A stretch of DNA of 64,000 bases from Nocardia pseudovaccinii NBRC 100343. Its GTDB lineage: Bacteria; Actinomycetota; Actinomycetes; Mycobacteriales; Mycobacteriaceae. A program made the translations under genes and the position numbers. This document shows positions 7,850 through 36,787 of the stretch, one piece after another. Positions within the stretch are counted from its first letter, which is position 1. Each line of letters starts with the position of its first letter. The notes under the pieces were generated by a model that did not search any database, had not been told where the DNA came from, and was given only the letters and a program-made list of their open reading frames with translations. Location of the stretch: positions 1 to 64,000 of the forward strand of contig NZ_BDBY01000096.1 in NCBI RefSeq assembly GCF_001613225.1. The letters are read 5' to 3'.

Positions 7850-8134
7850 TGACCGTCAGCGGTGTTCAGCGATCGTGAAGCGGTCCGGCGTTACCGGTAG
7901 CCTCGGAACGTCCCGCAATTCGACCGGGCGCGGAGTCGGCTGACTGCTCCTGATCACTTGTCCGACAGGGGCATCCGGCTAGAACGCAAGCCGCCATATG
8001 CCGATGAGCGTGAGCAGCGCGGCGATTACGATGGAAGCCCCCTTGACAGACTATCGTGCCATTGCTTTGTTTGGTGATAGTTTTTCTGTATCGTCGGATA
8101 GATCTCATACTCGCTACGCATGGAGGGAGATATC

Positions 8135-8635: not shown

Positions 8636-8652
8636 TCCCCACGAATCACCGG

Positions 8653-9267: not shown

Positions 9268-9278
9268 GGTCGTACTTC

Positions 9279-9579
9279 TTAATTTATCGTGCCTCCGGGT
9301 CCAGCCCGGCTTGTGTCGGGAGTACCCAGAAGTTGCTCGCGTTCTTGCTTTCTGGCGAAATAGTTACGCAGTCCGTCGATATATTGTCCGTAACGCAATG
9401 TCGGAGGCAATGATCCCCAAAGGGGATCCGCCCACCCGGACGATCCACTCTTCGTTACCCGAGCTTCGCTGGTCGAACTTCGCAAGGCATGGCTGCGGGA
9501 AATGGTTGTCGCGGTAGACTTTTGGGATGCGGTATTCGCCGGAATCTCCGCTGTCCCCGTTGTCCGCCCGCTGCGGCAA
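9279..9579 (-). pseudogene. Possible frameshifted small gene
   Basis: Two overlapping minus-strand frames read as consecutive parts of one protein. One contains RIPKVYRDNHFPQPCLAKF and EEWIVRVGGSPLG; the other contains LRYGQYIDGLRNYFARKQE and ends GPGGTIN. Joining them near 9425 gives a continuous hydrophilic protein that stops 11 nt before the esterase start. I do not recognise it, and the joint could be coincidence. If real, it was the upstream partner of the esterase and has lost its frame. Confidence 0.3.
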
Positions 9580-10333
9580 CTGTCGCTCCCTGCTTTCTCT
9601 CCATTACGCGTGGATCATAGGTCTCAGCGAGTGCGCATCTCGGCACCATGGTCGAAACGGCCGACCATGGCTGGGATCACCCGGAATGGGCGCATCATGC
9701 CCAGGTCTTCAGGTTCGAGCGGCATGTCGAATCCACTGTGCGGCATCGGCATCGCGCATCTTTCATTGCTGCGGATGACGGCCACAGCCCTTGGTTTTGC
9801 CGGGTGCGATGACGATCAGTCGGCGGCGGTGCGGAATGTCGTCGGTGCGGACGCGATACGTACGAGCCAGCGTGTCCGGTGGCGTGAAGCGATCTCGCAC
9901 CTCTCGCGTACCGACCCGGAACTCCATGATGTTCGGATATGGAATGTTGTTGGTGGGATCCGGGTTTCCTCGATGGTCAGCGGCGCGAGCATCATCGACA
10001 CAACCGCAACAGGATTGGGCACTGAGCGTCCTGCGTAAACCGGTCGTCGACGAACCACTCGCGGCACGAATCTACGACGAGGTGCTCGAACATGCGAACG
10101 TTTACGAGATGAATCCGTGACGCCGCCGCCGTGCCAACGCATTCGATGCATTGACACGGCGGCTCTCGGAGCGACAGCTCGCCATACTGCGCCACTGGTA
10201 GCACGGAGGCTCTCGGCAGACTAAGAGATCACCTTGCCGAATTCGGGCATCTCACCATGAAGAGGTCCTTCGCGCCTTACAGATCATGACCTGGATACGA
10301 TCCGGTCCACGACAGCTCGCAACGAACCGCCCG
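9580..10333. other. Stretch without a supported gene
   Basis: About 750 bp with only mixed, overlapping frames. A plus-strand frame to 10038 and another to 10120 (ending VVDEPLAARIYDEVLEHANV) contain short protein-like fragments, but neither has a ribosome site or a recognisable family. The most likely reading is decayed coding DNA. Confidence 0.4.
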
Positions 10334-11236
10334 CTACCCCACGGCAGCGTGATACTGGTCGCGATGCTCGATCCACGGACGTTGCCGCTCTTCATCACTC
10401 ATTGCCAGCAACTCCCGCAACTTCGCCCACGCCACCTCATCAACCGGGGTATAAATCTGCATCCACGCATGCGGCAGCGCGGGCAAGCTCATACTCGTCA
10501 AGAACATCTCCAACTCCCCCACCGCCAAATTCCGGATCTGCTTCGTACGACTCGCCGGAACAGCAACGTCATTACGAGCCCACAAAGACGCGAAAGTCTC
10601 ACTCTCCGCGCACAACTCGGAGATGAACTCCTCCCAACTCAGATCACCGAGATTCTTCACATACGAACCACGCAAGTAACCGACCATGCGCCGCAAGTCA
10701 TCCCAATTATGGTGATAGGTGTTGCAGCACTCCGGAGTCAGGAACACCCGACGAGCCACATTCCGCTCCCCCTTCACAAAACCCGGACACAACACCTCAT
10801 ACGACTTATTGTGCGCCAACACGTCATAACGCGGGCTGAGCACCACACCCGGCAAAGGTTCCAGATGATCCAGAATCACCTGAAGCTCTTCTGGCAGCGC
10901 CGTACCCGCATGCGCGGTCGGCACTGTGGGTACATCCGCCAACCGATACAGATGCGCCTTCTCCGCAGCATCCAACGACAACGTCCGCGCAACCGAATTC
11001 AACACCTGCACACTGACATTGATGCTGCGCCCCTGCTCGAGCCACGTGTACCACGTCACGCCTATCCCCGCCAATTGCGCGACCTCCTCGCGACGTAGAC
11101 CTGGCGTTCGCCTACGAGGTCCCGGAGGAAGCCCCACGTCCTCCGGTGAGATCCTGGCGCGACGCGACTTCAGGAATGCCCCCAGCTCGGAACGTCGAGC
11201 CTTGCGCACCGCCTGCACATCAACAACATCGGTCAT
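10334..11236 (-). CDS. XRE-family regulator with MmyB-like ligand-binding domain
   Basis: The 300-residue product has an N-terminal helix-turn-helix (TPGLRREEVAQLAGIGVTWY, with WYTWLEQGR), followed by an MmyB-like ligand-binding domain (LSPRYDVLAHN, YHHNWDDLRRMVGYLRGSY, DLSWEEFISEL). This is a common actinobacterial family, often linked to short-chain dehydrogenases or transporters. I chose ATG 11236 (MTDVVDVQ) over the in-frame ATG 11254, since GGGACGA precedes it, although the site is moderate. A 31-bp motif 30 nt upstream also occurs in front of the MFS gene at 36860, which suggests autoregulation and control of that transporter. Confidence 0.85.
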   Translation of the reverse strand: MTDVVDVQAVRKARRSELGAFLKSRRARISPEDVGLPPGPRRRTPGLRREEVAQLAGIGVTWYTWLEQGRSINVSVQVLNSVARTLSLDAAEKAHLYRLADVPTVPTAHAGTALPEELQVILDHLEPLPGVVLSPRYDVLAHNKSYEVLCPGFVKGERNVARRVFLTPECCNTYHHNWDDLRRMVGYLRGSYVKNLGDLSWEEFISELCAESETFASLWARNDVAVPASRTKQIRNLAVGELEMFLTSMSLPALPHAWMQIYTPVDEVAWAKLRELLAMSDEERQRPWIEHRDQYHAAVG

Positions 11237-11265
11237 GTAATGATCGTCCCGCACTTCACTAGCGG

Positions 11266-11296
11266 TATCCAGGTGCCACCAGTACCAGTATCAGCG
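11266..11296. promoter_or_regulatory. Probable operator shared with the MFS gene
   Basis: The 31-bp element is TATCCAGGTG, a variable triplet, then CCAGTACCAGT and a loosely conserved tail. The two blocks (10/10 and 11/11) and their spacing are identical to 36788-36818, 25 kb away. It lies just upstream of the XRE/MmyB-like regulator gene. CCAGTACCAGT is itself a direct repeat. A weaker relative (TCCAGGTGCC) sits near 19993. Confidence 0.6.
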
Positions 11297-11391
11297 AGCC
11301 ACCGAACCGAGGGACCGGAATGCGTGCAGCAAAGCGATATCGACGGCCTTGGCCAGGCCTTGCCGCGGACGGCGCGAATCGTGCAGCCGGG

Positions 11392-11862
11392 CTACAGGTT
11401 TCCGCGATGGCGGCGAAACGGCTCGAGGGCCTCGTCGCCGAGGTGAGGGCCCGAGACGGTGACGTCCGCGTCGCTGGCGCCGATGACGTCGGCGCACCGG
11501 AGGGCGAATCGCGGGTGTCCGCCGATAATTGCGGTGAAATCGGGTTCCGCGGCGGCGAAGACGACCCGCGTGATGCCGGTCCATACAATCGCCGCGCTGC
11601 ACATGGGGCATGGCTCGCCACTGGCGTAGATCGTGGCGCCGACCAGGTCGGCGGAGCGTCCGGTCTCGGTCGCCCCCATGATGGCGGTGAGTTCGGCGTG
11701 GGCGGTGACCATGCCGGACTCGGCAACCCGATTGCGTCCCGCGGCGATGACCGTGCCGTCGGCGGTCGCGATGACGGCACCGAACGGGCGGTTGCCGCGC
11801 CGCCCCGCCTCCTCGGCGAGCGAGATCGCTTGCCGCAGAAGGTCATTGTCGGCACTGGTCAT
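11392..11862 (-). CDS. Nucleoside/guanine deaminase-like protein (CDA superfamily)
   Basis: The 156-residue product carries the zinc signature of the cytidine deaminase superfamily: TAHAELTAI around residue 57 (zinc His and catalytic Glu) and EPCPMC around 86-89 (two zinc Cys). It also has the RPFGAVI substrate-side motif typical of guanine/tRNA-adenosine-type deaminases. Length and motifs fit a guanine deaminase or general nucleoside deaminase acting in purine salvage. The start is ATG 11862, with GAGGGA 4 nt upstream. It is divergent from the LysR gene, whose normal form might have regulated it. The exact substrate cannot be told from sequence. Confidence 0.85.
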   Translation of the reverse strand: MTSADNDLLRQAISLAEEAGRRGNRPFGAVIATADGTVIAAGRNRVAESGMVTAHAELTAIMGATETGRSADLVGATIYASGEPCPMCSAAIVWTGITRVVFAAAEPDFTAIIGGHPRFALRCADVIGASDADVTVSGPHLGDEALEPFRRHRGNL

Positions 11863-12027
11863 CGTGTCCCTCGATTCCGGTGATTTCGCGAGGCAGTCGG
11901 CGGCGCGCGGTGTAGATCGTCGGCGGTTTCCGCTGACTGTGTGCTCGAATCCATGATGCCGAACAGCGGCAATAGTGTCTGAGTTATAGATTCCATCGCG
12001 ACAATTGATCGAGCCTATAGTGGGGCG

Positions 12028-20688: not shown

Positions 20689-22149
20689 ATGGACCATGCC
20701 GGAGCCCCATTACTCGATGCCCTGGTCGAATACCGTGAGCTGGGCCGATACGGTTTCACCCCGCCCGGCCACCGACAGGGCCGCGGCGCGGACGAACGCG
20801 TGCGACGCATCCTCGGCGCCGAGACATTCGGTTCGGATGTTCTCGGCAACAGCGGACTCGACGACCGCCGGGCAAGCGGTGGCTACCTGGCGCGTGCCGA
20901 GGAGTTGATGGCCGACGCGGTCGGCGCCGACTACGCCTTCTTCTCGACCTGCGGTAGCTCGCTGTCGGTCAAGGCGGCGATGATGGCCGTCGCGGGAGGT
21001 TCACCGGGGCTGCTGGTGGCGCGCGACAGCCACAAGTCGATCGTCGCCGGTTTGATCTTCTCCGGTGTACAGCCGCGCTGGATATCCCCGCGATGGGATG
21101 CGGCGCGGCACCTGTCCCATCCGCCGTCGCCCGAGCAGATCCGCGAGACCTGGGAGCGCTATCCGGATGCGTCGGGGGCCTTGATCGTCAGCCCGAGTCC
21201 GTACGGAACGTGCGCCGATATCCGGGGTATCGCCGAGGTGTGCCATGAGCGCGGCAAGCCGCTCATCGTGGATGAGGCGTGGGGCGCGCATCTGCCGTTC
21301 CACGACGAATTGCCTACGTGGGCAATGGATGCGGGCGCGGATGTCTGTGTGGTCAGTGTGCACAAGATGGGCAGCGGATTCGAGCAGGGTTCGGTCTTCC
21401 ATCTGCAGGGCGACCTGGTCGAACGCGAACGTCTATCGGCATGCGCCGATCTGTTGATGACCACCAGCCCGAATGTCATGGTGTACGCCGCATTGGACGG
21501 GTGGCGACGTCAGATGGTCGAGCACGGTAGCGAATTGCTCGGCGCCGCACTGAAATTGGCCGGACAACTACGCGCCGATATCGAGGACATTCCGGGATTG
21601 CACGTACTGGAGGACGAGTTGCTCGGCGCCGAGGCCTCGCACGACCTGGACCGGATGCAGGTCCTCATCGATGTCGACGAGCTCGGGCTGTCCGGCTATC
21701 AGTGCGCCGACTGGCTTCGGGAGAACGCGCGCATCGATGTCGGACTGAGCGATCACCGCCGGATCATGGCGACACTGTCGATGGCCGATGACGAGTCGAC
21801 CACCAGGCGGCTGCTCGATGCGCTGCTGTCGCTGAGCGCGGCGGCCCCGGAAATCCCCGCGCCGGAAGCGATTCGACTTCCCGATCCGCAAGACCTCGAA
21901 CTCGAAACCACGATGCTCCCCCGCGACGCGTTCTTCGGCGCCGTCGATACGGTCGAGATGAAGGCCGGTGCCGGGCGGATTGTCGCCGAGCAGCTCACGC
22001 CGTATCCGCCCGGCATACCGGTCGCGGTTCCCGGGGAGCGGCTGAACGAGGCGGTTCTCGATTACCTGGTCACGGGGGTTCGTGCCGGAATGGTGGTGCC
22101 GGATGCCGCCGACAGTTCGATGCGGACGATCCGGGTGGTCGCGGACTGA
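20689..22149 (+). CDS. Orn/Lys/Arg-type PLP decarboxylase
   Basis: The 486-residue product is a fold-type I PLP enzyme of the Orn/Lys/Arg decarboxylase major-domain family. It has the GRYGFTPPGHRQGRG substrate-side motif, FFSTCGSSLSVKAAMMAV, LIVDEAWGAHLPFH (Asp for the PLP ring nitrogen), and SVHKMGSGFEQGSVF with the Schiff-base Lys near residue 225. The C-terminal domain is short, as in the SpeA/LdcC-related actinobacterial group. It should decarboxylate a basic amino acid to a diamine; which one cannot be told. No strong ribosome site is visible. It is divergent from the hemerythrin gene. Confidence 0.85.
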   Translation: MDHAGAPLLDALVEYRELGRYGFTPPGHRQGRGADERVRRILGAETFGSDVLGNSGLDDRRASGGYLARAEELMADAVGADYAFFSTCGSSLSVKAAMMAVAGGSPGLLVARDSHKSIVAGLIFSGVQPRWISPRWDAARHLSHPPSPEQIRETWERYPDASGALIVSPSPYGTCADIRGIAEVCHERGKPLIVDEAWGAHLPFHDELPTWAMDAGADVCVVSVHKMGSGFEQGSVFHLQGDLVERERLSACADLLMTTSPNVMVYAALDGWRRQMVEHGSELLGAALKLAGQLRADIEDIPGLHVLEDELLGAEASHDLDRMQVLIDVDELGLSGYQCADWLRENARIDVGLSDHRRIMATLSMADDESTTRRLLDALLSLSAAAPEIPAPEAIRLPDPQDLELETTMLPRDAFFGAVDTVEMKAGAGRIVAEQLTPYPPGIPVAVPGERLNEAVLDYLVTGVRAGMVVPDAADSSMRTIRVVAD

Positions 22150-22158
22150 CGCGCCGAA

Positions 22159-23625
22159 TCAACTCGGCTCCGTCCGGCGGAACAGCGTCAACGTCGCGGG
22201 GCGGCTGGTGAAGGAGAAGTCGTTGCCGCGGTGCTCGACCTCGCCGTCGGTGGCCAGCGCGACCGGGCCACCGTCGACGTGCACGGTCAGCCGGTCGGCG
22301 CGGCGGTTGACGTAGGTCGCGGAGCGGTCGAGAGTGCCGGTGAGGGTGGCCCAGATCAGGCGGGTTCGGGAAAACGGCAGGTCCGCGCGCAGATATCGGA
22401 TATCCAGGGTGCCGTGACGCAGTGCGGGACGCGACATGGGGATCTGGTGGGCGGGGCGGTAGTGGCCGTTGCCGACGAACAGCATCCAGATGGCGGTGCG
22501 GGTGCCGTCGATGGTCGTCGGTAGCGGCTGGGCCCGAAACAGCACACGTACCATGGCTATTCCCGCGGCGGGCCATTTGCCCAGGCGCGGCTCCCAGTGT
22601 TCGCGGATGCGGACGAAGTCGGGATAGCCGCCCAGGCTTGCGGTATTGACGAAGGTTCGCGGCGCGAGTCCGTCGGATCGCACCTCGGCGGTATCGGTGC
22701 GGACCGCGTCGCCGGATTCCAGTGCGGCCAGGGTGTGCTCGGGGCGCTCGACCCCGGTGTCGCGGGCGAAATGGTTGAGGGTGCCACCGGCGAATACCGC
22801 CAGAGGCAGCCGGTGCTCGACCGCGACGGCCGCGACGGCCGAAACTGTTCCGTCGCCGCCGAATACGCCGAGGGCGGCGATATCGTGGCGGCGGGCGCGT
22901 TCGTCGAGCTGGGCGGTGAGGTCATCGGTCACCGCCAGAACTTCAGCGGCTGGCAGGTTTTCGTGTAGTAACTGCAGTTGCTCCGAGCCGCCGCTGCCCG
23001 AATCCGTATTGATGACGAGCAGCAGCCCGAATCCGTTGTGCATAGCGGTGATTCGTTCACGCGGACCCAGCTCGGCGGGCTCATCGTCGCGCTGCGCCCA
23101 CCAACGCCGGGTACCGAGGGCGATCGCACTGCCGAGTGCCGCGCCCGCGATCACATCGGAGGGCCAATGCACGCCGATATGCACGCGTGAATAGCCGACG
23201 GCCGCCGCTATCGGCGCGACGACGACCGCGGCGGCCGGGGATTCGAGGGCGACGCCGGTTGCGAAGGCCGCAGCGGAGGCTGAGTGGCCGGAGGGGAATG
23301 AGGAGGACACCGGCGGTTTCACCAGCCGTCGCACGAAGGGCACCGACTCGTCCGGCGGTCGGCGGCGTGGGAACAGCGGCTTCGCAATGCCGTTTGCCAC
23401 CGAACTGGCCAATGCGACCGACAGGAGCCCGCGCACAGCCGCCCGTCGCGGTACTCGGCCACCCATCGACATCAGCGCCGCCACGACCAGCCACAGGCGA
23501 CTGTGGTCGGCGCTCACACTCAATGTCCGCAGGAACCGATCGGCAGGGGTCGGCCGCACCCGCGCACTGCGCGCCACCAGCCACGCGTCCACGTGACGCG
23601 AGAGCTTCGGTGACTGCTTGCGCAT
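22159..23625 (-). CDS. PAP2 phosphatase-diacylglycerol kinase fusion
   Basis: The N-terminal 200 residues are a PAP2-type membrane phosphatase (KPLFPRRRPPDES, SSFPSGHSASAAAF, SRVHIGVHWPSDV), with the catalytic His residues and several transmembrane segments. The C-terminal 290 residues are a diacylglycerol/sphingosine-kinase-like domain (FGVFGGDGTVSAVA-type motif near residue 257, AGGTLNHFARD). Fusions like this are widespread in actinobacteria and are thought to recycle undecaprenyl or phosphatidyl lipids. I use ATG 23625 (MRKQSPK); the frame is open to ATG 23661. It converges on the decarboxylase with a 9-bp gap. Confidence 0.85.
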   Translation of the reverse strand: MRKQSPKLSRHVDAWLVARSARVRPTPADRFLRTLSVSADHSRLWLVVAALMSMGGRVPRRAAVRGLLSVALASSVANGIAKPLFPRRRPPDESVPFVRRLVKPPVSSSFPSGHSASAAAFATGVALESPAAAVVVAPIAAAVGYSRVHIGVHWPSDVIAGAALGSAIALGTRRWWAQRDDEPAELGPRERITAMHNGFGLLLVINTDSGSGGSEQLQLLHENLPAAEVLAVTDDLTAQLDERARRHDIAALGVFGGDGTVSAVAAVAVEHRLPLAVFAGGTLNHFARDTGVERPEHTLAALESGDAVRTDTAEVRSDGLAPRTFVNTASLGGYPDFVRIREHWEPRLGKWPAAGIAMVRVLFRAQPLPTTIDGTRTAIWMLFVGNGHYRPAHQIPMSRPALRHGTLDIRYLRADLPFSRTRLIWATLTGTLDRSATYVNRRADRLTVHVDGGPVALATDGEVEHRGNDFSFTSRPATLTLFRRTEPS

Positions 23626-23721
23626 GCCCACAAGGCTATCCGGCCAGGCGCGGTCAGCCACGGCAGTTCAGGCCGCAACCCTCGCTTCAGGCCGTTGAAC
23701 TGGGATAACACCGATCAGCCC

Positions 23722-23727
23722 TTGACA
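23722..23727 (+). promoter_or_regulatory. -35 box for the BVMO operon
   Basis: A consensus TTGACA lies 17 nt before AATCAT (23745-23750), a weak -10 that is buried inside the palindrome at 23743-23777. A repressor bound there would block RNA polymerase. Confidence 0.45.
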
Positions 23728-23742
23728 CACACCAACCATAAA

Positions 23743-23777
23743 GGAATCATCTGATTCCATTGGAATCGGATGATTCC
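23743..23777. promoter_or_regulatory. 35-bp palindromic operator
   Basis: GGAATCATCTGATTCCA, a central T, then TGGAATCGGATGATTCC form an inverted repeat with 17-bp arms and one mismatch. Each arm itself contains a smaller inverted pair (GGAATC..GATTCC), so four half-sites are present, as in operators that bind two TetR dimers. It lies 33 nt before the BVMO start and overlaps the likely promoter. The TetR gene at the end of the same operon is the probable ligand-controlled repressor. Confidence 0.75.
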
Positions 23778-23809: not shown

Positions 23810-25285
23810 ATGGATCAGCCGACCACGCGACCCGACCATGTACCGATCGTTGTAATAGGTGCCGGGTTCGCGGGTATCGGATTGGCGGTGAAGCTGCGCG
23901 AGGCCGGTTTCCACGACTTCGTCATCCTCGAACGCGGCACCGACCTCGGTGGCACCTGGAGCGCCAACACCTACCCCGGCTGTGCGTGCGACGTGCCTTC
24001 GATGCTGTATTCGTATTCCTTCGCCCCGAACCCGAATTGGTCCCGCCGCTACGGCACGCAGCCGGAGATCCTCGACTACTTGCGCGGAGTGGCGAACAAA
24101 TACGATGTGCCGCAACATATTCGGTACGGCACAGAGGTGCTCGACGCCGCGTGGGACGAAGCCGCCGGACAGTGGCGCATCCGTACCGGGCAGGGGTCAT
24201 TGACCGCCGACGTGCTGGTTTCGGCGATCGGTCCGTTCAGCGAGGCACAGATCCCCCGCCTCCCCGGTATCCCGAACTTCACCGGCACTCAGTTCCATTC
24301 CCTGCACTGGGATCACGACCACGATCTGACCGGTGAGCGGGTTGCGGTGATCGGCACCGGCGCGTCCGCGGTGCAGTTCATTCCGGAGATCCAGCCCATG
24401 GTGCAACGGCTCACGGTTTTCCAGCGTTCCGCGCCGTGGATCGTCCCGCGCATGGATTGGGCGACCAGCACGGTCGAGCGCACACTCTTGCGTCGGATGC
24501 CGTTGCTGGGCAAGACGATCCGCGCCGCGTACTTCACCGGCATCGAGGGATTCGGGCTGGTCGGGTTCGTGGACAAGCGGTTCCGTCATCCGTTCGAGGC
24601 GCTGGGCCGATTGCAGCTGCGCCGCCAGGTTCCCGATCCGCGACTGCGCCGAAAGCTGACGCCCGACTACATGATCGGCTGCAAACGCGCGATCTTCTCC
24701 GACGCCTACTACCCCGCGCTGTCCAAGCCCAATGTCGAGGTGGAGACCGCCGGGATCGCCGAGGTCCGGCCACGATCGATCGTCACCGTGGACGGCACCG
24801 AACACGAGGTCGACACGATCATCTGGGGCACCGGTTTCGGTGTGCCGCCACGGATATTCGAGGCCATCCACGACACCGGGGGACGCACACTCGCACAGCT
24901 GTATCGCGAGCGCCCGCGCAGCTATCTGGGCACCACCGTCACCGGATTTCCGAACTTCTTCACCACCCTCGGCCCGTTCGGCGCGGCCGGGAACCAGTCG
25001 GCGATCTTCATGATCGAGGCCCAGATCCGCTACATCGTGGACGCGGTAAAACATGTGCGCGACAACGAACTTCGCCGTATCGAGGTACGACCGCAGGTGC
25101 AGCGGGACTTCGTCGAGGAGATGGAGCGGCGCAGCCGCGACACGGTATGGGTGACCGGTGGCTGTCGCAGCTACTATCAGACCGCCGACGGCCATCACAA
25201 TGCCGGGCTGTATCCGAATTGGAGCTTCGAATACGCCAAGCGCACCATGCGATTCGATTCCGACGCCTACCTGATCGAGGCATGA
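23810..25285 (+). CDS. Flavin monooxygenase, Baeyer-Villiger type
   Basis: The 491-aa product has the FAD Rossmann motif near the N-terminus (IVVIGAGFAGIGLAVKL) and the BVMO fingerprint FTGTQFHSLHWDHD (about residue 157), where the FxGxxxHxxxW pattern is complete. The NADPH-binding Rossmann motif VIGTGASAVQFIPEI follows, near 182. GTNVSAP-like and W-rich C-terminal blocks complete the fold. It should insert oxygen next to a ketone, using NADPH and O2. I chose ATG 23810 because GGAGGAG is 5 nt upstream. The gene overlaps the following SDR by ATGA. Substrate is unknown; the adjacent SDR and carboxylic acid reductase suggest alcohol/aldehyde/ketone conversion. Confidence 0.9.
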   Translation: MDQPTTRPDHVPIVVIGAGFAGIGLAVKLREAGFHDFVILERGTDLGGTWSANTYPGCACDVPSMLYSYSFAPNPNWSRRYGTQPEILDYLRGVANKYDVPQHIRYGTEVLDAAWDEAAGQWRIRTGQGSLTADVLVSAIGPFSEAQIPRLPGIPNFTGTQFHSLHWDHDHDLTGERVAVIGTGASAVQFIPEIQPMVQRLTVFQRSAPWIVPRMDWATSTVERTLLRRMPLLGKTIRAAYFTGIEGFGLVGFVDKRFRHPFEALGRLQLRRQVPDPRLRRKLTPDYMIGCKRAIFSDAYYPALSKPNVEVETAGIAEVRPRSIVTVDGTEHEVDTIIWGTGFGVPPRIFEAIHDTGGRTLAQLYRERPRSYLGTTVTGFPNFFTTLGPFGAAGNQSAIFMIEAQIRYIVDAVKHVRDNELRRIEVRPQVQRDFVEEMERRSRDTVWVTGGCRSYYQTADGHHNAGLYPNWSFEYAKRTMRFDSDAYLIEA

Positions 25286-26169
25286 TGAACCTGCTGCGGC
25301 TGCTGCCGACCAATGACACCTTCGATGTGGCCGACAAGGTGGTGGTGATCACCGGCGCCGGACGCGGCATCGGTGCGGAACTGGCGCAAATCCTGCACCG
25401 CCGCCGCGCGCGGGTCGTCATGCTCGATCTCGACGAGGACAAGGTACGCACCGCCGCGGCCCGATTGGGGTCACGCGCGGTTCCACTGCGCGCCGATGTC
25501 GCCGACCGCGACAGCATGGTCGCCGCCACGGCGACGGTACGTGACCGCTTCGGCCGGATCGATCTCGTGGTCGCCAATGCCGGTATCACCCCGGTACCCG
25601 CCACCCTGCGCACGATGGACCCCGCAGATTTCGATCGGGTCATCGGAGTCAATCTGACCGGTGTCTTCAACACTGTTCGACCGGCCCTCGACGATATCGT
25701 CGCCTCCGGCGGCCACGTCGTCGTGGTCTCCTCATGCGCGGCGTTCGCGCCCGGCATGGGCGGCTCCCCGTACATGATCAGCAAGGCCGGGGTCGAACAG
25801 CTCGGCCGCGCGTTGCGGGTCGAACTCGCCGCATCCGGGGCCACCGCCGGAGTCGCCTATTTCGGCATCGTCGAGACCGCCATGACCCACCACACGCTCG
25901 ACGACGACGAATTCGGCCGCGCGGCCGATGCCATGCTGCCCTGGCCGCTCAACCAGCGCATCAGCGCCGCCCAGGCCGCACTGGCCGTCGCCGACGGCAT
26001 CGCCCATCGCGCCCCGCGCATCATCGCACCCCGCGTCTGGGAGCCCTATGCCCTGCTGCGCGGTGCCGTCAACGTGCTGATGGACCGGTACCTCAGCACC
26101 GACGAACAGCTGCGGGTCCTGCTCCGCAAGCTGGAACAACGCCCGCGCAGCGAGTCCAACCGCGCATGA
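25282..26169 (+). CDS. Short-chain dehydrogenase/reductase
   Basis: The 295-residue product has the cofactor motif VVITGAGRGIGAELA, an acidic VVMLDLDED after beta-2 suggesting NAD preference, NAGI, VVVVSSCAAF and the catalytic YMISK (about residue 164). It starts at ATG 25282, overlapping the BVMO stop by 4 nt; a second ATG follows at once. The C-terminal extension of about 40 residues (WEPYALLRGAVNVLMDRYL) resembles that of SDRs commonly paired with BVMOs, which oxidise an alcohol to the ketone the BVMO uses. Confidence 0.9.
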   Translation: MMNLLRLLPTNDTFDVADKVVVITGAGRGIGAELAQILHRRRARVVMLDLDEDKVRTAAARLGSRAVPLRADVADRDSMVAATATVRDRFGRIDLVVANAGITPVPATLRTMDPADFDRVIGVNLTGVFNTVRPALDDIVASGGHVVVVSSCAAFAPGMGGSPYMISKAGVEQLGRALRVELAASGATAGVAYFGIVETAMTHHTLDDDEFGRAADAMLPWPLNQRISAAQAALAVADGIAHRAPRIIAPRVWEPYALLRGAVNVLMDRYLSTDEQLRVLLRKLEQRPRSESNRA

Positions 26170-26181
26170 CATGATCCAACC

Positions 26182-26805
26182 GTGACTTCGTCTGCCACCA
26201 CCTGGCGCGGCAGCACCATGGCCAGCCGCGCCGCCGAGCGCCGCGAACAACTCGTGCGCGCCGGCTACGCGCTGCTCGGCGGCGAGGGCGCGGCGGCGAC
26301 CACCATGCGGGCGGTGTGCCGTGCAGCGGGCCTGAGCCTGCGCTACTTCTACGAGAACTTCGCCGATCGCGAAGCCCTGCTCATCGAGGTCTACGACCAG
26401 ACCGCACACGGGCTCATCGACGCCGTCACCACGCGGCTGGCCGACGCACCCGACGACGAAACCGCCCGTACCCGTGCGGCTTTCGACGCGGCGGCGCAGT
26501 ATTTCGCGGACGATCCGCGCCGCGGCCGGATCATGTTCCGCGAAACCCTCGCCGATGACACCCTGCGGGCACGCGGCGCCGACGCACTCCCCGCCTTCGT
26601 CACGCTCGTCGCCGCGCAACTGGCACCGGTGCAGGCCGCGCGCTTCGCTACCGCACCGGGCCGGATTCCGCTGCCGGTCAGTGCGATATCCGGCGCACTC
26701 GTCGCACTGTTCCTCGATTGGCTCGACGGCGATGTCGAGGCCAATCGCGACGCGGTGGTCGACTACGCCACTCGACTCACCATTACCGTTCTCGAGCTCA
26801 CCTGA
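26182..26805 (+). CDS. TetR-family regulator
   Basis: The product of about 207 residues has a TetR N-terminal domain (RREQLVRAGYALLGGEGAAA, TMRAVCRAAGLSLRYFYENF), followed by a helical ligand domain (MFRETLADDTLRARGADALP). GTG 26182 is the annotated start; ATG 26218 (MASRAAERR) is also possible. It is 12 nt after the SDR, so it belongs to the same operon. The unusually clear 35-bp palindrome upstream of the operon is the likely operator, giving simple autorepression. It ends one base before the end of the convergent CAR gene. Confidence 0.85.
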   Translation: MTSSATTWRGSTMASRAAERREQLVRAGYALLGGEGAAATTMRAVCRAAGLSLRYFYENFADREALLIEVYDQTAHGLIDAVTTRLADAPDDETARTRAAFDAAAQYFADDPRRGRIMFRETLADDTLRARGADALPAFVTLVAAQLAPVQAARFATAPGRIPLPVSAISGALVALFLDWLDGDVEANRDAVVDYATRLTITVLELT

Positions 26806-29800
26806 CTACAGCAGTCCACGCAACCGCAGATCGCTGACGTACTTGTCGATGAGCGCGCGAGTCAGATGCGGAATATCATGCTCGACACCGACTTTCGCGC
26901 CTTGCACGGCAGCGGTGAAACCCTTTGCCGGAATGACGGCGCCACGGACCGGCCGACCGGGTCGGCTGTAGGCGTGCAGCAGCGGTAGCAGCGAGGCCTG
27001 GCGCTGTTTCTCGGGAAGGCCGCGCAGCGCGGTCTCGAATCGGCGCAACCATTCCTGATAGTCGTCGATCCGCCGGATCGGGTGGCCGGATTCGATGAGC
27101 CAGTCGACGAATTCGTCGAGGGAGATGCCGTCGTCATGCGGATTCAGGACGTCGAAGCTGTGGAAATCTGTGCGCGCCGCGACGCCGACGGCGGTGATCG
27201 CCTCGGCGGTGAAATCGACGGGCAGACCGTCGTAGTGGGCACGTCGGCGCTTGCCGTCGTCATCGGTCTCGTAGAACGAATACGGGGCGATGCCAGTGGC
27301 CACCAGACTGAGCAGCAGCCGGGTGAACATATCCGGAACGTTGAGCTGGCCAGCGTATCGACTGTGCGCCAGGATCATATCGGATCGGAAGACGGCGACC
27401 GGAAGTCCGCACAGGTCGTGCGCTTCCCGCAGCAGGACCTCTCCCGCCCATTTGCTGTTGCCGTAGCCGTTGGCGTAGCTGTCGTCGATGGCACGCGTGG
27501 GGCTGATTTCGCGGATGTCGCCGTCCTCCTCGAAGGACGATGGCTGAATCCGGTCGGCGACGGCCACGGTGGACAAATACGTGACGGGCTTGATTCGCGT
27601 GGTGATTGCCAGGCGGATGAGTTCCGCGGTACCGACGACATTGGGGCCGAACAGCTGGTCGTAGGGCAGGACATGGTTGACCAGCGCGGCGGGATGCACG
27701 ATCAGATCGACGGTGTCGGCCAGCCGATGCCAGGTCGCATCGTCCAGGCCGAGATTCGGCTCGCCGATATCACCGGGCAGCACTTCGAGGCGGCGGGCCG
27801 CCAGCTCGCGGTAGTGCCGCAGCAGGTCCGGATCACCGCTGTCGAAGGCATCGTCGAGCCGTTTCCGCGCTGCCGCGGCGTCTTTGCCGCGGATGATGCA
27901 GACGAGCGTGCCGTCCGTCTTCTCGAGTCGCTCGAGCCATTCCAGGCACAGGAAGCGGCCGAGGTAGCCGTTGGCACCGGTCAGCAGCACCGTCTGTGTC
28001 TCGGTCGTGTGCGGGAGAGTCGTCGCGGCGGACAGTGTTTGCGCGTCGATGAACTTGTCCAGTGTCAATTCATCGGCACGCGCGACGCCGCCGTGGGTAT
28101 GGACCGCGGCGAAGGTAGGCCGGATCGCGCCGGACCCCTGTGCCGCCTCGACATACTCCGCCAACTCGCGCAATCCGTTGGCCGGGCTGACGATAACGCC
28201 CACCGGTACCTCGACGGCGAAGATATCGCGCAGTAGATTCGAAAATGACAGCGCGGAGAGGGAATCGCCGCCGAGATCGGTGAAATGCGCGTCCGGTCGC
28301 AGATCGGTTGTCGCACAACCGAGCAATGCCTGTGCGGCTCGGCTCACGGTTTCCAGAACCGGCAGGTCGGCGGCTTCGCGACGCAGTGCGAGCAGTTCGT
28401 TCGCCTGCCCTTCGGCCAGTTCGGTGTACAGCTGCTGCAGCCGCCGGCCGTAGCGCTCGATCAGCTTGGGACGCAACAACTTGCCGATACCGGAGAGCAG
28501 ACCGTTTTCGGTGGTGAAACGTTCGGTTTCGATGAGGAAATCGCGCGGGATCTCGTACGACTGGAGATCGGCCTCGTTGGCGATGCGCTGCAGTGAATCA
28601 CTCAGTGCCGCTTTTGGATCGGCGCTGCGAAGCGTCTCGTCGGTCGGGACGATCACCGCGAGCAGGTAGGCGCGCTCACTGCTGCCGTATACGAAGATCT
28701 GCTCGAGCAGCGGGCTGCTGGCATATACGGCTTCCAGGTGTGCGACCGCGACGAATTCGCCTTGGGAAAGCTTCAGCACATTATTGCGACGGTCGAGGTA
28801 GACGAGTTCATCTGCTCCGAGTTCGGCCACGACGTCACCGGTCCGGTAGAACCCGTCCGCGTCGAAGATTTCCGCGGTGACCTCGGGACGCTTGTAGTAC
28901 CCGGGAATCATGGTGCTGGTCTTCAGCAGCAGCTCACCGCGCGGATGCGGCTGGTCGGTACCGAAATATCCCAGCTCCGGCACGTCCACCAGCTTGTAGT
29001 CGAGCACAGGTGGACGGTGGATCACATTGTCGACCATGATGGCGCCGCCCGCCTCGGTCGAACCGTAGCCATCGTGCAGGTCCATATCGATGACCGATTC
29101 CATGAATGTCTTCATTTCGGCGGCCAGTGGCGCACTGCCGACGATGGGCGATAGGAATCGGCCGCCCAGGAAGTCCTCGCGCAGTTCGGTTTTCACCGCA
29201 CGGTCGAGTTCAGCGCGATCGATGCCCGGTTCGGCGCGACGCTCCATTTCGCTCTGATAGCGCTGGAAGACCATATCGCACACGCGTGGCACGAAGAACA
29301 TCTCGGTCGGCCGGACGAGGCCGATATCCTCGAAAAGCGTCGATATATCGCTCTTGGCCGTGAAATACGCGGTGCCGCCGCGGGCCAGCACGCCGTAGAG
29401 CGACATGCGTCCGGCCATATGGCTCATCGGCATATAGTTCAGGCCGATTCCCCCGACCTCCGGCTGGGCCAACCACATCGCGGTTACCAACCGGCTGGTG
29501 TACATCGCGCCCTTGGGGGTTCCGGTGCTGCCGGAGGTGTAGATCAGCAGCTCCAGAGCGTCGTCGTCGGGTACGAACAGCGGTGCGGGCGGCAGGGTAC
29601 GGCCGCGTTCGAGTACCGACTCCAGCGATTCCACCACTATCGGAGTGTTCGCCAGGCGGTCGCGGGCGGATTCGAATGCGTCGCGCTGATCATCGTCCTC
29701 GGGGTGGTAATCGAAGACCACGAGACGTTCCGGCGTCGGGCCCGCGAGGACGCATTCCACTGCGGTAGTGAGGTTTTCGGGGGTCGCGGCGAGGATGCGT

Positions 29801-30285
29801 GGTTCGGTCTCGGCAATGATCGCCGACACTTGCTTCGGTGCCGCACCTGCCTGCAGCGGCACGGCGACCGCGCCGAGATACAGACAGGCCAGATCGAGCG
29901 TGGTGTAGTCGCCGCTGGTGAAGCCGAGTGTCGCGATGAAGTCGCCCGCTTTGATGGGGTTGTCGGGATTGTGATGCCAGGCTGCGGCGATCGCACCGAC
30001 GCGCGCCCACAATTCGCCGTAAGTGATGGTGGCGAATTCGGGCTGCGGTCGCAGCGTGCGCCGCCCGGACTCGTCCGCGGTGGGTTCGAGGACCCGGTGC
30101 CCGAGCGCGGGGCGATCGGCATAGGCCGCCGCGACCGTCGCCACGATCTGTGATGGCCGCATTCCGGGTTCTCGGATCGCGGCGAAAGTCTCCGGTTTCG
30201 GTCGCGCGTTGCGAATGTCCGGATAGGTGGCATACAGGTCGGCGATGCGATTCATGACCTGTTCCATCCGCGTATCAATAATCAT
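26806..30285 (-). CDS. car: Carboxylic acid reductase
   Basis: The 1159-residue protein has the full CAR architecture: an adenylation domain ([14 protein letters not shown] near residue 250, [18 protein letters not shown]), a phosphopantetheine carrier site ([13 protein letters not shown], Ser near 674) and an NADPH-dependent reductase domain ([18 protein letters not shown] near 767, [14 protein letters not shown] near 943). It reduces a carboxylic acid to the aldehyde using ATP and NADPH, and needs a phosphopantetheinyl transferase, which is not in this window. AAGGAGG is 6 nt upstream of ATG 30285. It converges on the BVMO-SDR-TetR operon. Length matches Nocardia CARs (about 1170 aa). Confidence 0.95.
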
Positions 30286-30360: not shown

Positions 30361-30373
30361 TTAGCCTGGCTAA
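30361..30373. promoter_or_regulatory. Inverted repeat upstream of the CAR gene
   Basis: TTAGCC, T, GGCTAA is a perfect 6-bp inverted repeat in the 166 bp between the divergent CAR and deformylase genes, 76 nt before the CAR start. It may be an operator for CAR expression. It does not resemble the BVMO-operon palindrome, so a different regulator would act. Confidence 0.4.
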
Positions 30374-30451: not shown

Positions 30452-31075
30452 ATGACGATCCCGCTTCCCGATCTCGTCGAGACGCTGCTCGGTGGTCCAC
30501 TCTCCATTGTCAGCGCGGGCGATCCGGTGCTGCGCACGCCCGCGGCGCGCTACGACGGACAGCTGACGCAGGCTCAATTGGACCGCTTGGTGTGGGCTAT
30601 GCGGGAGACGATGCGTGCCGCGCCCGGTGTCGGACTGGCTGCCCCACAGGTCGGGATACCGCTGCGGCTGGCCGTGCTGGAGGATCCGGCCGAAGTGACC
30701 GACGAGGTGCGCGCGGTTCGCGAGCGAGTCCCGCTACCGTTCCGAGTTCTGGTCAACCCGACCTACGAACCCATCGGCGACGCCCACGCGGCATTCTTCG
30801 AGGGCTGCCTGAGCGTTCCGGGCTGGCAGGCCGTCGTCGCGCGCCACGCCCGCGTGCGCCTACGCGGCCAGGACGAACGCGGCCGCGAGTTGGACGAGGA
30901 AGTCTCCGGCTGGCCCGCCCGCATCGTCCAGCACGAAACCGACCACCTCGACGGCACCCTCTACATCGATCGCGCCATCACCCGCTCCCTGACCTCCGCC
31001 CAGAACCTGAACGACCGCTGGCCCCAACCAACCCCTTCGGCCGCGGCCGAGGCCATGGGCTTCGACTTGCCCTGA
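30452..31075 (+). CDS. def: Peptide deformylase
   Basis: All three catalytic motifs are present: GVGLAAPQVG (about residue 59), EGCLSVPG with the metal Cys (about 117) and QHETDHLDG with two metal His and the catalytic Glu (about 160). The enzyme removes the formyl group from nascent proteins. The 207-residue length fits actinobacterial PDF. I chose ATG 30452 (MTIPLPDL); an earlier TTG at 30419 lacks support. No strong ribosome site is visible. A hairpin follows 11 nt after the stop. Whether this is the only def gene cannot be judged. Confidence 0.92.
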   Translation: MTIPLPDLVETLLGGPLSIVSAGDPVLRTPAARYDGQLTQAQLDRLVWAMRETMRAAPGVGLAAPQVGIPLRLAVLEDPAEVTDEVRAVRERVPLPFRVLVNPTYEPIGDAHAAFFEGCLSVPGWQAVVARHARVRLRGQDERGRELDEEVSGWPARIVQHETDHLDGTLYIDRAITRSLTSAQNLNDRWPQPTPSAAAEAMGFDLP

Positions 31076-32510: not shown

Positions 32511-35500
32511 TCAGCCACACGGCGGCTTGCTGTCGACGCCGCGCGGAAGCTTGTCGCGTTCGGCATCGGTGTAATCGCGATTGCTGATCGCGCACAGCCG
32601 TTCCTGAATATTGTTGCGGTCGAGGTTGATCCGGATCGGACCCTGGTCGGACAGACCGATCAGCGTCGTTCCGATCAGCTTCCAAACCATGGTGGACCCG
32701 GGCACGGTGAACTTCGTGCTGGTCCCTGTGCGCGTGTCCCACGCTTCGACTTCGGATTTTTTGCCGAGCACGACAAGACCATCCGCTGACCATCCAGCGA
32801 CAACGGAGTCGGGCGGTACCGGCGGTATGTCCAACTTCGCGGCCTCGCCAGTGGCGGTGTTCCAGCGGAACAACGAACCCGAGTCGTCCTGGACCAGCGC
32901 ATCGGCCTGCCCAGGATTCATATGGACACTCACCACACGTCTACCCTGCGGAACGAACGAGCGAACCAGCGCGCCGCTCTCGAGATTCCACACCTGCAGC
33001 GACGCGGTGGCGACGTTGACAACAACAGAGTCTGGCGACGCGTAACCGACGAGGGTCGACGCTTTCGCGGAAGTCCGCAAATCCTCGAGGTTCTCGCTGA
33101 GCGGGACCTGACCGCCGATCTGTCGACCGTCGCCGATGCGCCAGCGCGTGATGGCTCCCGCGAACAATGCGGCCACTTCGTCGTCGTCGCGAATGGCGAA
33201 GGTTATGAAGGATAGATCTGCCGGATCCAAACCCGGGGGCGTCGGGAGTTGTAAGCGAGCTATCTCGTCGAAGGCAGGCATGAGCACAACGGCGGCTTTC
33301 GAAGAGCCGGTGAACATCAGGGCATGGCGCCCGTCGGGAGTGAAAGCCAGCATCGCGTGTGGCCAGACCCGAAGGGTGAAACCGGGCAGGCTGTAGAGAA
33401 GCCGCACCGAATTCAGGTCGATGACCTCGAACGTCTCACCGCGATCGCTCGCGGCATAACGGCCGTCGGGACTCCACAGGGACGTGACATAGTCGGGCGC
33501 GATCTCAGGCCAATCAGGGTTGAACTCTGCTGCCGCCCGGTATCGCTCGATGCCGCCACCCGTCGCATAGATCAACTGCGGACCGGCCGAGGTGAGGTGT
33601 ACCGCGGGGGCGGCCTCGTTGGAGCTGCGTCGAACCTGGACCTGATACACGAGTCCAGTCGCAAGGTGAACAAGCTTTGCGATCCCGAACGCATCCCTGC
33701 TTTCGCCGGAATATTCGATCGCGAATTGTCCTGTCCTGTCGAGCTGGAGCGATTGACAGGTGCCGAGCCGCACCCCGCGAAGCTGCGCGCCGTCAGCGCC
33801 GCGGATGATCAGGGTCTTCGCGTCATCGGCGCATTCTGTGGTCAGGCCGTCGGGTGTGACGTCGCGCCCTCGCCATTCACCAACTGGCCGACCGCTTCTC
33901 AGGTCGTAAATGACATGGTGTTCCTTGAAATCGACGTCCGTCTCCGAAAGCCACACGGTTTGATTCCCGGAGTCGACCCGTGCGACCGTCCGTGTCGCCA
34001 TGCCATCGGCAGGAATGTCCTGAAGCCGTCGAGGCTGTCCGGACAGGTCATATCTTTCGACCACATCGGGATCGCCGAAATAGGTGCCATAGTCTCGCTT
34101 CGGATCGACAGAAATGAACAACTGTCTGCCATCCTCGGAGAACCTTGCGACGAGCGCCTTACTTCCCACAACATCCGCACCGGCGGGCCGAACAGAGACG
34201 GGACCGGATCGAGTCGGCACGTCCCACAGCGCGATGCCGCCACGATTGTCCAGGACCGCCAGTTTGCCGCCATCAGGGCTCAGGCGCACGCCGATGACAC
34301 TCGGCCCCGTGGCCACCCGCCACGGCGACGGCGGTCCGGTGAGAAATCCCGTCCAGACCGTGACATTGCCGTTCGATTCGGCAGTTGCCAAGACCGACGT
34401 ATCGGCGCTGAAGTCCGCTGTCGTCACATTGGACCAAAGGTCGTTGTACGCGGCCTCCAATGAGCCGAGCCGAACCTGCTCGAGCAGCTGACCCGCTCGA
34501 ACGTCCGCATTGTCCGGAGCGAATCTTCCTGCGGCTTGCGCGAATTGGAGAGCCCTGGACGGATCGGTGTTACCGAGCACTTCGGATTGCTGAGCGAGGT
34601 TGATTCCCGCTTGCTCCCGCAATTGGGCCGTCCGGGCCTGGCTGGTCCGATAGGCGACGACTGCGGCGCTGGAGGCGACCAGGGCGAGTACGGCGACCAC
34701 CGCGGTGACGGTCCACAATCGCCGCACCTCGCGTCGGCGGAGGCGGCGGGACGCGGCGATGTACAGCCGGTGCGCTGCAGGGATTTCAGGTTTGCGCTTG
34801 TCGACCCATTCGAGCGCATCCTCCAGCGTCTTGCCGTGCAACAGCGCGCCGTTGTCGTGCGCTGACAGCTCCCACTTCTGGCGGTCCTGCTCCAATCGCT
34901 GTTGCCAGGCACGGAAGTCGCGGTCGTCCTGCAGCCAGCCGCGCAGCCGCGACCAGTTGTCGATGAGGGCCTGGTGCGCCAGTTCTACGATGTCGGTTCC
35001 CTGCGCGTCCCGGCCGACGACGACCAGCCGGTCACGCGCCAATCGTCCAGCGACACTGCGCAGTTCGGGGAAATCACCCATCGACACCACGGACCGGACG
35101 AAACCCGCTCCGCTGGACGCGGGTGCGGCGAGCAGCTTCAGTAGGCGCCGCACGTCGAATTCCTCGACCGGATCGGTGAACTGGGCCAGCACCTGCTCAG
35201 CGCGGTCGGTGAAGAAACCCGTTGCGCGGCCGACTTTTTCGTAATCATCGATGGTCAGAGACGCGCTGCCGCGCCGATCCCACAGTTGCGTCAGAGTCGA
35301 CTCGAGCAGTGGCAGCGCACCCGGCTCGCCCACCGTGTCGTCGATTAGACGCTCGACCAGCGCGGGCTGCAGATCGACGCCAGGCGCACGGGTCGCGGGC
35401 CGCTGGATGGCGTCGCGGAGCTGGTCACGGCCCATCGGCGCCAGCGCCACCGTCGCCCCGTCGAGAAAGCTGGCGAGTTCCGCGTCGATCAGGTTGTTCA

Positions 35501-36668
35501 GCGCATCCCACCGCAACGTGAGCAGAATTCTGATGTGCCCCTCGGTATCGGCGCGGGTGAGCTCCATCAGCCATTGCAGTACCGCACGTGCCCGCTCCGG
35601 GGCGGTCGCGGCCAGATCCTCGAATTGATCCGCGAAGAGCACCAAGCCCTCCGGCGGCACGCGCTCGAGCAGTCGCGCCACCGAGTCGTCGTCGGTACCC
35701 GACTCCCGCGCCGCCTGTTCCGCCAGCAGTGTCGAGAGCGCGCCGTCGTCCGGAAAATCGAATCGTGGCGCCACCGCTCGGACGACCGGCGTGGCCGCCT
35801 CGCCCGGCGACACCTCGCCAGCGAGCCGGAAGGTCGCGATCTGCCTCCCCTGCGCCCGGAGCCGGGGAATCACCCCGGCTCGGATGAGCGACGATTTGCC
35901 GGTGCCCGACGGTCCGGCCACCGCGACGAGCGGTCGCTGCCGCAGTGCTGCCGACACCCGCTCGATGTCGTCGTCTCGACCGTAGAAGTAGTCCGCGTGT
36001 TCCTCGTCGAACGGCTCCAGCCCACGGTAGGGATTGGGGACGAATGAGGGGTCGATACCGAGCACGTCGGCAATCGGGATCATGAACGCCGTCCCGGTGT
36101 ACCCACGCGGGTCGGCAACCGCCGCCATCCCCACTACCGCGTCTGTTCCGCTGTCCCACACCGGCGCACCGCTGAACCCCCGCGTGATCGGCTGACCGCC
36201 GACCCGCTGCAACTGCAGCCAGCCGGTGCCCTGCCGTTCCCGGAACTCACCCGACGCCCAGACGCCATCGGGCAACTCCGCCGGAAAGCCGAACATCCGG
36301 AACTCGCGCCCCCACGGGTCATTGGCACGCCAAAACGGCGGCGGCGCAACCGAATCGCTGATGGCGTCGTCCAGCTCCAGGATCGCGATATCTCCCCGGC
36401 CGTCCTCGGCGATCGGTGACCACCGGCGCACCCGCGCGCGCTGCGGCCCGGCCGATGACAGCAACGGAAAGTCGACCGCCACAACCGAGTCCGGCGGCCG
36501 CAGGTCATTCGGATCGGCGCCGGTCGCGTACGCGACCACGTGCGCGCACGTCGCGACGATGTTCGGGCCCACCAGGTACCCCGCGCCGACGACCTGACCC
36601 GTGGTCGTGCGGATCCGCACATGCGCCGAGCCGAATCGAGCGACAGCGCTCGAACCACCTGCAGTCAT
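32511..36668 (-). CDS. Trypsin-like protease / nSTAND ATPase / WD40 protein
   Basis: The 1385-residue protein combines four parts. A trypsin-like domain has His in VATCAHVVAY (about 43), Asp in GRGDIAILELD (about 91) and Ser in TRGFSGAPVW (about 165). A conserved NPYRGLEPFDEEHADYFYGR linker leads to a STAND NTPase with Walker A VAGPSGTGKSSLIRAG (about 258) and Walker B VLFADQFEDL (about 344). A transmembrane-like helix lies near 659 (VTAVVAVLALVASSAAVVAY), followed by a degenerate beta-propeller to the C-terminus. Such nSTAND1 proteins are proposed conflict or stress sensors in which ATP-driven assembly triggers an effector, here the protease. ATG 36668 (MTAGGSSA) has AGAGGGGG upstream. Confidence 0.88.
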   Translation of the reverse strand: MTAGGSSAVARFGSAHVRIRTTTGQVVGAGYLVGPNIVATCAHVVAYATGADPNDLRPPDSVVAVDFPLLSSAGPQRARVRRWSPIAEDGRGDIAILELDDAISDSVAPPPFWRANDPWGREFRMFGFPAELPDGVWASGEFRERQGTGWLQLQRVGGQPITRGFSGAPVWDSGTDAVVGMAAVADPRGYTGTAFMIPIADVLGIDPSFVPNPYRGLEPFDEEHADYFYGRDDDIERVSAALRQRPLVAVAGPSGTGKSSLIRAGVIPRLRAQGRQIATFRLAGEVSPGEAATPVVRAVAPRFDFPDDGALSTLLAEQAARESGTDDDSVARLLERVPPEGLVLFADQFEDLAATAPERARAVLQWLMELTRADTEGHIRILLTLRWDALNNLIDAELASFLDGATVALAPMGRDQLRDAIQRPATRAPGVDLQPALVERLIDDTVGEPGALPLLESTLTQLWDRRGSASLTIDDYEKVGRATGFFTDRAEQVLAQFTDPVEEFDVRRLLKLLAAPASSGAGFVRSVVSMGDFPELRSVAGRLARDRLVVVGRDAQGTDIVELAHQALIDNWSRLRGWLQDDRDFRAWQQRLEQDRQKWELSAHDNGALLHGKTLEDALEWVDKRKPEIPAAHRLYIAASRRLRRREVRRLWTVTAVVAVLALVASSAAVVAYRTSQARTAQLREQAGINLAQQSEVLGNTDPSRALQFAQAAGRFAPDNADVRAGQLLEQVRLGSLEAAYNDLWSNVTTADFSADTSVLATAESNGNVTVWTGFLTGPPSPWRVATGPSVIGVRLSPDGGKLAVLDNRGGIALWDVPTRSGPVSVRPAGADVVGSKALVARFSEDGRQLFISVDPKRDYGTYFGDPDVVERYDLSGQPRRLQDIPADGMATRTVARVDSGNQTVWLSETDVDFKEHHVIYDLRSGRPVGEWRGRDVTPDGLTTECADDAKTLIIRGADGAQLRGVRLGTCQSLQLDRTGQFAIEYSGESRDAFGIAKLVHLATGLVYQVQVRRSSNEAAPAVHLTSAGPQLIYATGGGIERYRAAAEFNPDWPEIAPDYVTSLWSPDGRYAASDRGETFEVIDLNSVRLLYSLPGFTLRVWPHAMLAFTPDGRHALMFTGSSKAAVVLMPAFDEIARLQLPTPPGLDPADLSFITFAIRDDDEVAALFAGAITRWRIGDGRQIGGQVPLSENLEDLRTSAKASTLVGYASPDSVVVNVATASLQVWNLESGALVRSFVPQGRRVVSVHMNPGQADALVQDDSGSLFRWNTATGEAAKLDIPPVPPDSVVAGWSADGLVVLGKKSEVEAWDTRTGTSTKFTVPGSTMVWKLIGTTLIGLSDQGPIRINLDRNNIQERLCAISNRDYTDAERDKLPRGVDSKPPCG

Positions 36669-36787
36669 GGTCCCCCTCTCTGTGCCCGAACGAACATATC
36701 CCGGCACACCAGAGCTCGAGATCGAAAGCGATATCGTCGGTGTATATCTCGCCGCGCTTCGACGGCCTCTCAGCGGCCGCCGGTCGC

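Follow-up and report, generated by a model that had tools for sequence, protein, structure and literature searches.

A Baeyer-Villiger monooxygenase operon with a predicted TetR operator and an adjoining, convergent carboxylic acid reductase gene in Nocardia pseudovaccinii

In the window analysed here, a stretch of 64,000 nucleotides from the 9.94 Mb genome of Nocardia pseudovaccinii NBRC 100343, the genes for a Baeyer-Villiger monooxygenase (BVMO), a short-chain dehydrogenase/reductase (SDR) and a TetR-family regulator form one tight unit on the plus strand, and the gene for a carboxylic acid reductase (CAR) constitutes a separate unit outside this operon. We consider it likely that these are two independent units which touch at their 3' ends, namely a TetR-repressed BVMO-SDR-TetR operon and a separately controlled CAR gene. 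On sequence, they look like ordinary neighbours rather than components of one pathway, and the tempting grouping of enzymes would be mostly a matter of neighbouring genes. The new and useful detail is a predicted operator together with its tie to the TetR family, so that a small group of TetR proteins accompanying BVMO-SDR pairs now has a defined candidate operator open to direct testing.

Gene layout and encoded enzymes

All four genes of the initial annotation were recovered as ORFs in the places it had given them, with families matching by Pfam and NCBIfam (Table 1). Their description as lying end to end holds for adjacency; orientation had been left unstated, and with CAR on the minus strand the TetR and CAR genes stand tail to tail. 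The first four bases of the SDR gene are also the last four of the BVMO gene, the TetR gene follows on the plus strand after a gap of 12 nt, and the TetR stop codon TGA (26803-26805) directly abuts the CAR stop (26806-26808, minus strand), the two stop codons being contiguous at the 26805/26806 boundary as had been reported. This zero-base spacing recurs in all three relatives that have an adjacent, intact CAR gene. Because CAR lies on the minus strand, stop-to-stop with TetR, it cannot share a transcription unit with BVMO-SDR-TetR, and it was rejected as an operon member.

Table 1. Genes and predicted control elements at the BVMO-CAR locus
Feature	Coordinates	Strand	Basis
Promoter-like TTGACA-17-AATCAT	23722..23750	+	Consensus scan, 10/12 matches
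Predicted operator site 1, GGAATCATCTGATTCC	23743..23758	.	Exact match; conserved in relatives
Predicted operator site 2, GGAATCGGATGATTCC, 19 bp from site 1	23762..23777	.	Exact match; conserved
BVMO-type flavin monooxygenase, 491 aa	23810..25285	+	Pfam Pyr_redox_3, FMO-like
SDR, 295 aa	25282..26169	+	NCBIfam NF004526 above cut-off; TGAGRGIG and YMISK
TetR-family regulator, 207 aa	26182..26805	+	Pfam TetR_N; operator co-occurs with TetR family
Carboxylic acid reductase (CAR), 1159 aa	26806..30285	-	NF041592 equivalog; convergent with TetR
Palindrome TTAGCC-T-GGCTAA upstream of CAR	30361..30373	.	Sequence; unlike BVMO operator
Peptide deformylase, gene beyond CAR	30452..31075	+	

Type I Baeyer-Villiger monooxygenases are characterized by two Rossmann GxGxx(G/A) motifs and the fingerprint FxGxxxHxxxW(D/P). 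The BVMO contains both Rossmann motifs (GAGFAG at residue 17 and GTGASA at residue 182), the fingerprint FTGTQFHSLHWD at residue 157 and the motif GGTWSANTYPGCACD at residue 47, and on these motifs it is predicted to be a type I enzyme. The solved structures that it matches best are those of steroid, cyclohexanone and phenylacetone monooxygenases, and it reached the cut-off of none of the curated NCBIfam models. The SDR scored 319.4 bits against NCBIfam NF004526 (PRK05872 subfamily; cut-off 276) and conforms to the classical SDR motifs, TGxxxGxG and YxxxK, with TGAGRGIG at residue 24 and YMISK at residue 164. A conversion of alcohol to ketone to ester by SDR and BVMO, as initially proposed, is consistent with these families and motifs. 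The pairing is not obligate, since one related operon (G046) is without the SDR.

The CAR protein scored 1988.1 bits against NCBIfam NF041592 (cut-off 1300) and unites adenylation (PF00501), PP-binding (PF00550) and thioester-reductase (PF07993) domains of Pfam in a single chain, with the expected motifs found, including the phosphopantetheine attachment serine within LGGDS at residue 671. It is the sole full-length match of its kind in the source genome, and is most likely a complete, independent enzyme. The phosphopantetheinyl transferase family gave three matches in the source genome, by means of which CAR could be activated; one of these lies in a 214-aa ORF adjoining what we take, by eye, to be a truB-like ORF.

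Elsewhere in the window, the G+C content of positions 8001-12000 is 0.610, relative to 0.633-0.667 in the other 4-kb steps, and this segment is possibly acquired DNA. An Orn/Lys/Arg decarboxylase is encoded at 20689-22149 (plus strand), with 486 aa compared to 695-756 positions in the matched NCBIfam models, followed at 22159-23661 (minus strand) by a PAP2 phosphatase domain fused to a diacylglycerol-kinase domain (Pfam). A protein of 1398 aa, encoded at 32511-36707 (minus strand), combines trypsin-like peptidase and nSTAND1 NTPase domains with weak beta-propeller matches; STAND proteins can serve in signalling or defence.

A predicted tandem operator and its association with a TetR family

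Two exact GGAATC-N4-GATTCC palindromes, 19 bp apart, occupy positions 23743-23777, with the predicted -10 element AATCAT located inside site 1 and TTGACA placed 17 nt ahead of it. The promoter scan returned two sites in this region relative to an average of 1.6 in shuffles, and is not significant taken alone. A simple terminator scan (two sites, versus 4.3 in shuffles) read site 1 as a minus-strand terminator-like hairpin; a role for site 1 as the terminator of a minus-strand gene was rejected, as the BVMO operon, and no minus-strand gene, lies on that side. The TetR protein passed only the general TetR_N model (PF00440; 32.2 bits, cut-off 24) in the Pfam and NCBIfam scan.

The upstream regions of the ten closest loci (the window and L073-L081), defined as those in Nocardia that have a TetR gene together with the BVMOs most similar to that of the window, were read by eye. 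The BVMOs of these loci form one clade in a phylogenetic tree (100/99), and the locus is also present on contigs of N. vinacea (BVMO identity 96%) and N. anaemiae (95%). The tandem operator was present upstream of the BVMO gene in all ten, with both GAATCN4GATTC cores intact in eight and one mismatch in site 1 in the other two. The -35 element is TTGACA in seven of these loci and TTGACT in three, separated from the -10 element by 17 nt in eight and by 18 nt in two. In every case the first two bases at the centre of site 1 are AT, which is what a -10 element at this position would demand, and the centre of site 2 is variable.

Searches of 150 Nocardia genomes, permitting up to 2 mismatches, retrieved the tandem from 11, in one place each and every time beside a TetR gene of this family; the reversed control pattern gave no hit among the matches listed. 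Ten of the 11 tandem sites precede BVMO-(SDR)-TetR, and the eleventh (G026, 2 mismatches) is separated by 66 nt from the point at which a TetR homologue (45% identity) starts to align. In an order-wide sample of 397 genomes, which comprised few Nocardia and evidently neither of the two Hoyosella considered below, the tandem was found solely in the window's own genome, and it is thus rare outside the source lineage. Three single palindromes, none in tandem, occur elsewhere in the source genome, located by eye inside a beta-lactamase-like ORF, approximately 78 nt before a PKS-like ORF and where a sigma-factor-like ORF begins; on inspection of the ORF listings by eye, they were rejected as a clear regulon.

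The association extends to 41 more distant TetR homologues with loci at hand, for which 180 nt upstream were read (L091 was left out). Homologues with the LSPRYFYE-type segment had the GAATCN4GATTC core within this distance in 17 of 24 cases, the remaining seven having either nothing (six) or a broken site (L205), and the core was found in none of the 17 homologues with other segments. Of the 17 LSPRYFYE homologues that have a core, 16 also have a second site 19 bp on, which in 13 of these 16 is degraded (3 mismatches, with a right half of GATGTC). The predicted operator appears to track this TetR family; as the loci are related and drawn from those at hand, with counts that are neither independent nor complete, the tie is a strong association and not proof of binding.

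In the TetR homologues of L137 and L145, GGAAAC-N4-GTTTCC replaces GGAATC-N4-GATTCC upstream, and the operator may possibly have shifted along with the recognition segment of TetR. The Nocardia TetR homologues of L168 and L186-L203 (42-48% identity) have one intact core, in most cases accompanied by a second site that is degraded; several of these genes are divergent from a conserved ORF, that of L168 being a SnoaL-like match below the cut-off. No prior report of the operon described here was found among the titles and abstract beginnings listed from the openly licensed literature, and GGAATC occurs within primer sequences in the available part of one article (PMC6099782).

The carboxylic acid reductase gene in related genomes

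The layout is not conserved in relatives, where the initial annotation had sought its confirmation. In the 15-20 kb read at each of the ten closest loci, four (G000, G116, G120 and G044) have an intact CAR gene next to TetR, one (G134) has a remnant and the other five (G046, G111, G016, G079 and G093) have no CAR. Separation of CAR from the operon in close relatives, which the same annotation had named as refuting its grouping, is therefore what was found, and neither a shared strand nor a layout kept across the ten loci supports a single operon that includes CAR. The remnant in G134 (BVMO 90% identical) is without about residues 86-551 and 999-1113 of CAR; its weak N-terminal piece has two stops, and its open frame still encodes the carrier domain together with a portion of the reductase. 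The BVMO, SDR and TetR of G134 aligned over almost their full length, with the operator retained, and more generally the operator and TetR persist at loci where CAR has been lost. The four adjacent CARs form one clade (100/100); this clade, taken with the single BVMO clade, would fit a single joining event with later decay. CAR was found in 122 of 148 Nocardia genomes (E <= 1e-200), and beside BVMO-SDR-TetR in at least four among the matches listed.

No GGAATCN4GATTCC-like site was found upstream of CAR with up to 2 mismatches, and a CAR operator of the BVMO type was rejected. One operator match with 2 mismatches lies inside the CAR gene (29617-29632); such matches are expected by chance. The idea that CAR shares its regulation or pathway with SDR-BVMO is not supported, given its opposite strand, the lack of an operator copy (up to 2 mismatches) upstream of it and its patchy presence in the closest loci. 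The palindrome TTAGCC-T-GGCTAA upstream of CAR is intact in two of the three relatives with an adjacent CAR and has one arm changed in the third, and could be a candidate site of another regulator.

In at least seven further genomes (G106, G049, G133, G094, G060, G053 and G037), CAR was located 5-46 kb from a BVMO paralogue (68-70% identical), as judged by eye among the matches listed. A rough estimate, with copy numbers and distances from the listings and an estimated 1.1 listed BVMOs per genome, predicts about 2.3 genomes in all with a distance of at most 50 kb between CAR and a BVMO; the excess may reflect one old arrangement in related genomes. The paralogue clusters of four genomes were opened (L206-L210), with CAR 5-19 kb from BVMO-SDR, and a selection of their ORFs was scanned, comprising at most 10 of the 14 listed for L206 besides the CAR, BVMO and SDR frames. 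A PF10118 hydrolase was encoded in three of the four (G106, G049 and G094) and was not among the ORFs scanned of G133, and TetR genes occurred near the BVMO paralogue in G106, G049 and G133. BVMO is preceded by a Fer2 reductase gene in G106, and in G094 by one for an aldehyde dehydrogenase; in two of the paralogue clusters scanned (L101 and L210), an aldehyde dehydrogenase, with a reaction opposite to that of CAR, stands just before BVMO, and G106 has an aldehyde dehydrogenase gene just upstream of CAR on the same strand. Beta-oxidation genes lie between BVMO and CAR in G094, in which a same-strand carboxylesterase gene also overlaps the CAR start by four bases. Such gene content suggests a common lipid/ketone catabolic neighbourhood rather than a fixed module, with a loose link between CAR and BVMO being possible.

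Proposed control, alternatives and known systems

We propose that BVMO, SDR and TetR would be transcribed from one promoter, with its -10 element within the first of the two 16-bp palindromes. TetR, encoded by the last gene of the operon, would bind the palindromes, block RNA polymerase and hence repress its own operon, until released by a ligand that is probably a ketone or a substrate derived from lipids. The SDR would then interconvert a secondary alcohol and a ketone, into which the BVMO would insert oxygen to yield an ester or lactone; knowledge of these protein families is what suggests the repression, the ligand, the substrates and the direction of the reactions. The CAR unit would have joined BVMO-SDR-TetR in one Nocardia lineage and decayed in one of its members. 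If TetR does bind as predicted, TetR and its operator could be used as a sensor for the ligand, and BVMO, SDR and CAR are still usable as single biocatalysts.

An alternative is that the genes are kept together as one module, in which the ester made from an alcohol by SDR and BVMO would be hydrolysed by an esterase, with CAR then converting the released acid to an aldehyde. Such a module would account for the exact adjacency of CAR in four genomes, for its proximity to a BVMO paralogue in at least seven more (by eye, relative to about 2.3 expected) and for the carboxylesterase gene that overlaps the start of CAR in G094. However, CAR is on the opposite strand with no common operator, is absent from five and a remnant in one of the ten closest loci, and is accompanied by an operon without a hydrolase in the window, whilst the aldehyde dehydrogenase before BVMO in L101 and L210 would run the CAR reaction in reverse; we regard the module as unlikely, and a three-enzyme BVMO-SDR-CAR cascade as unsupported. 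Regulation of CAR by TetR, instead of or besides that of BVMO-SDR, is scarcely credible, for adjacency speaks in its favour but an operator-like site (up to 2 mismatches) is lacking upstream of CAR, and the operator and TetR are kept where CAR has been lost.

Convergent transcription might also couple the two units: when the operon is strongly expressed, antisense transcription would run into CAR and lower its expression, and vice versa. Both the zero-base spacing, in the window and in all three relatives with an adjacent intact CAR, and the lack of a terminator-like site at the TetR/CAR junction in the simple scan are consistent with such coupling. Nevertheless, densely packed genomes not infrequently have convergent genes with zero spacing, simple terminator scans perform poorly on high-GC bacteria, and we hold this alternative to be very unlikely. 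Its extension to a switch with CAR and BVMO-SDR as opposed arms, in which the TetR ligand would induce ketone oxidation and transcription across the zero-spaced junction would simultaneously hold CAR down, is highly improbable; if true, it would mean that one family of compounds is either oxidized or reduced, but not both at once. Two independently controlled units remain our preferred interpretation.

Features of both units are shared with known systems. The pdc cluster of Caenibius tardaugens, like its counterpart Saro_3708/3709 (PMC12239570), has a BVMO gene next to that of a TetR-like regulator, as here, and differs in having an extra luciferase-like monooxygenase and a second regulator. 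That cluster acts on progesterone (PMC12239570), and no such claim is possible for the BVMO operon of the window. Two Hoyosella loci have in common with the window the BVMO-SDR pair, the TetR family and the tandem operator, and CAR was not found beside either of these operons. In one (L143), the tandem lies between a 47% identical TetR and a divergent PF10118 hydrolase-Fer2 reductase-BVMO-SDR operon; the other (L127) shows the tandem and TetR along with a comparable first ORF, BVMO and SDR, its first two ORFs lying outside the Pfam scan. The divergent TetR and the hydrolase and reductase in front (by Pfam for L143 alone) set the Hoyosella operons apart from that of the window. The EthA-EthR system of mycobacteria, as far as the consulted sources describe it, similarly places a BVMO gene under an adjacent repressor of the same broad type, EthR being a TetR protein, and differs from the present operon, in which TetR is encoded last, the SDR lies between and the operator consists of two short palindromes. 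The best solved relative of the CAR protein is 5msc, a carboxylic acid reductase that we take to be from Nocardia iowensis, which matches it over residues 1-1158 with 1898.9 bits.
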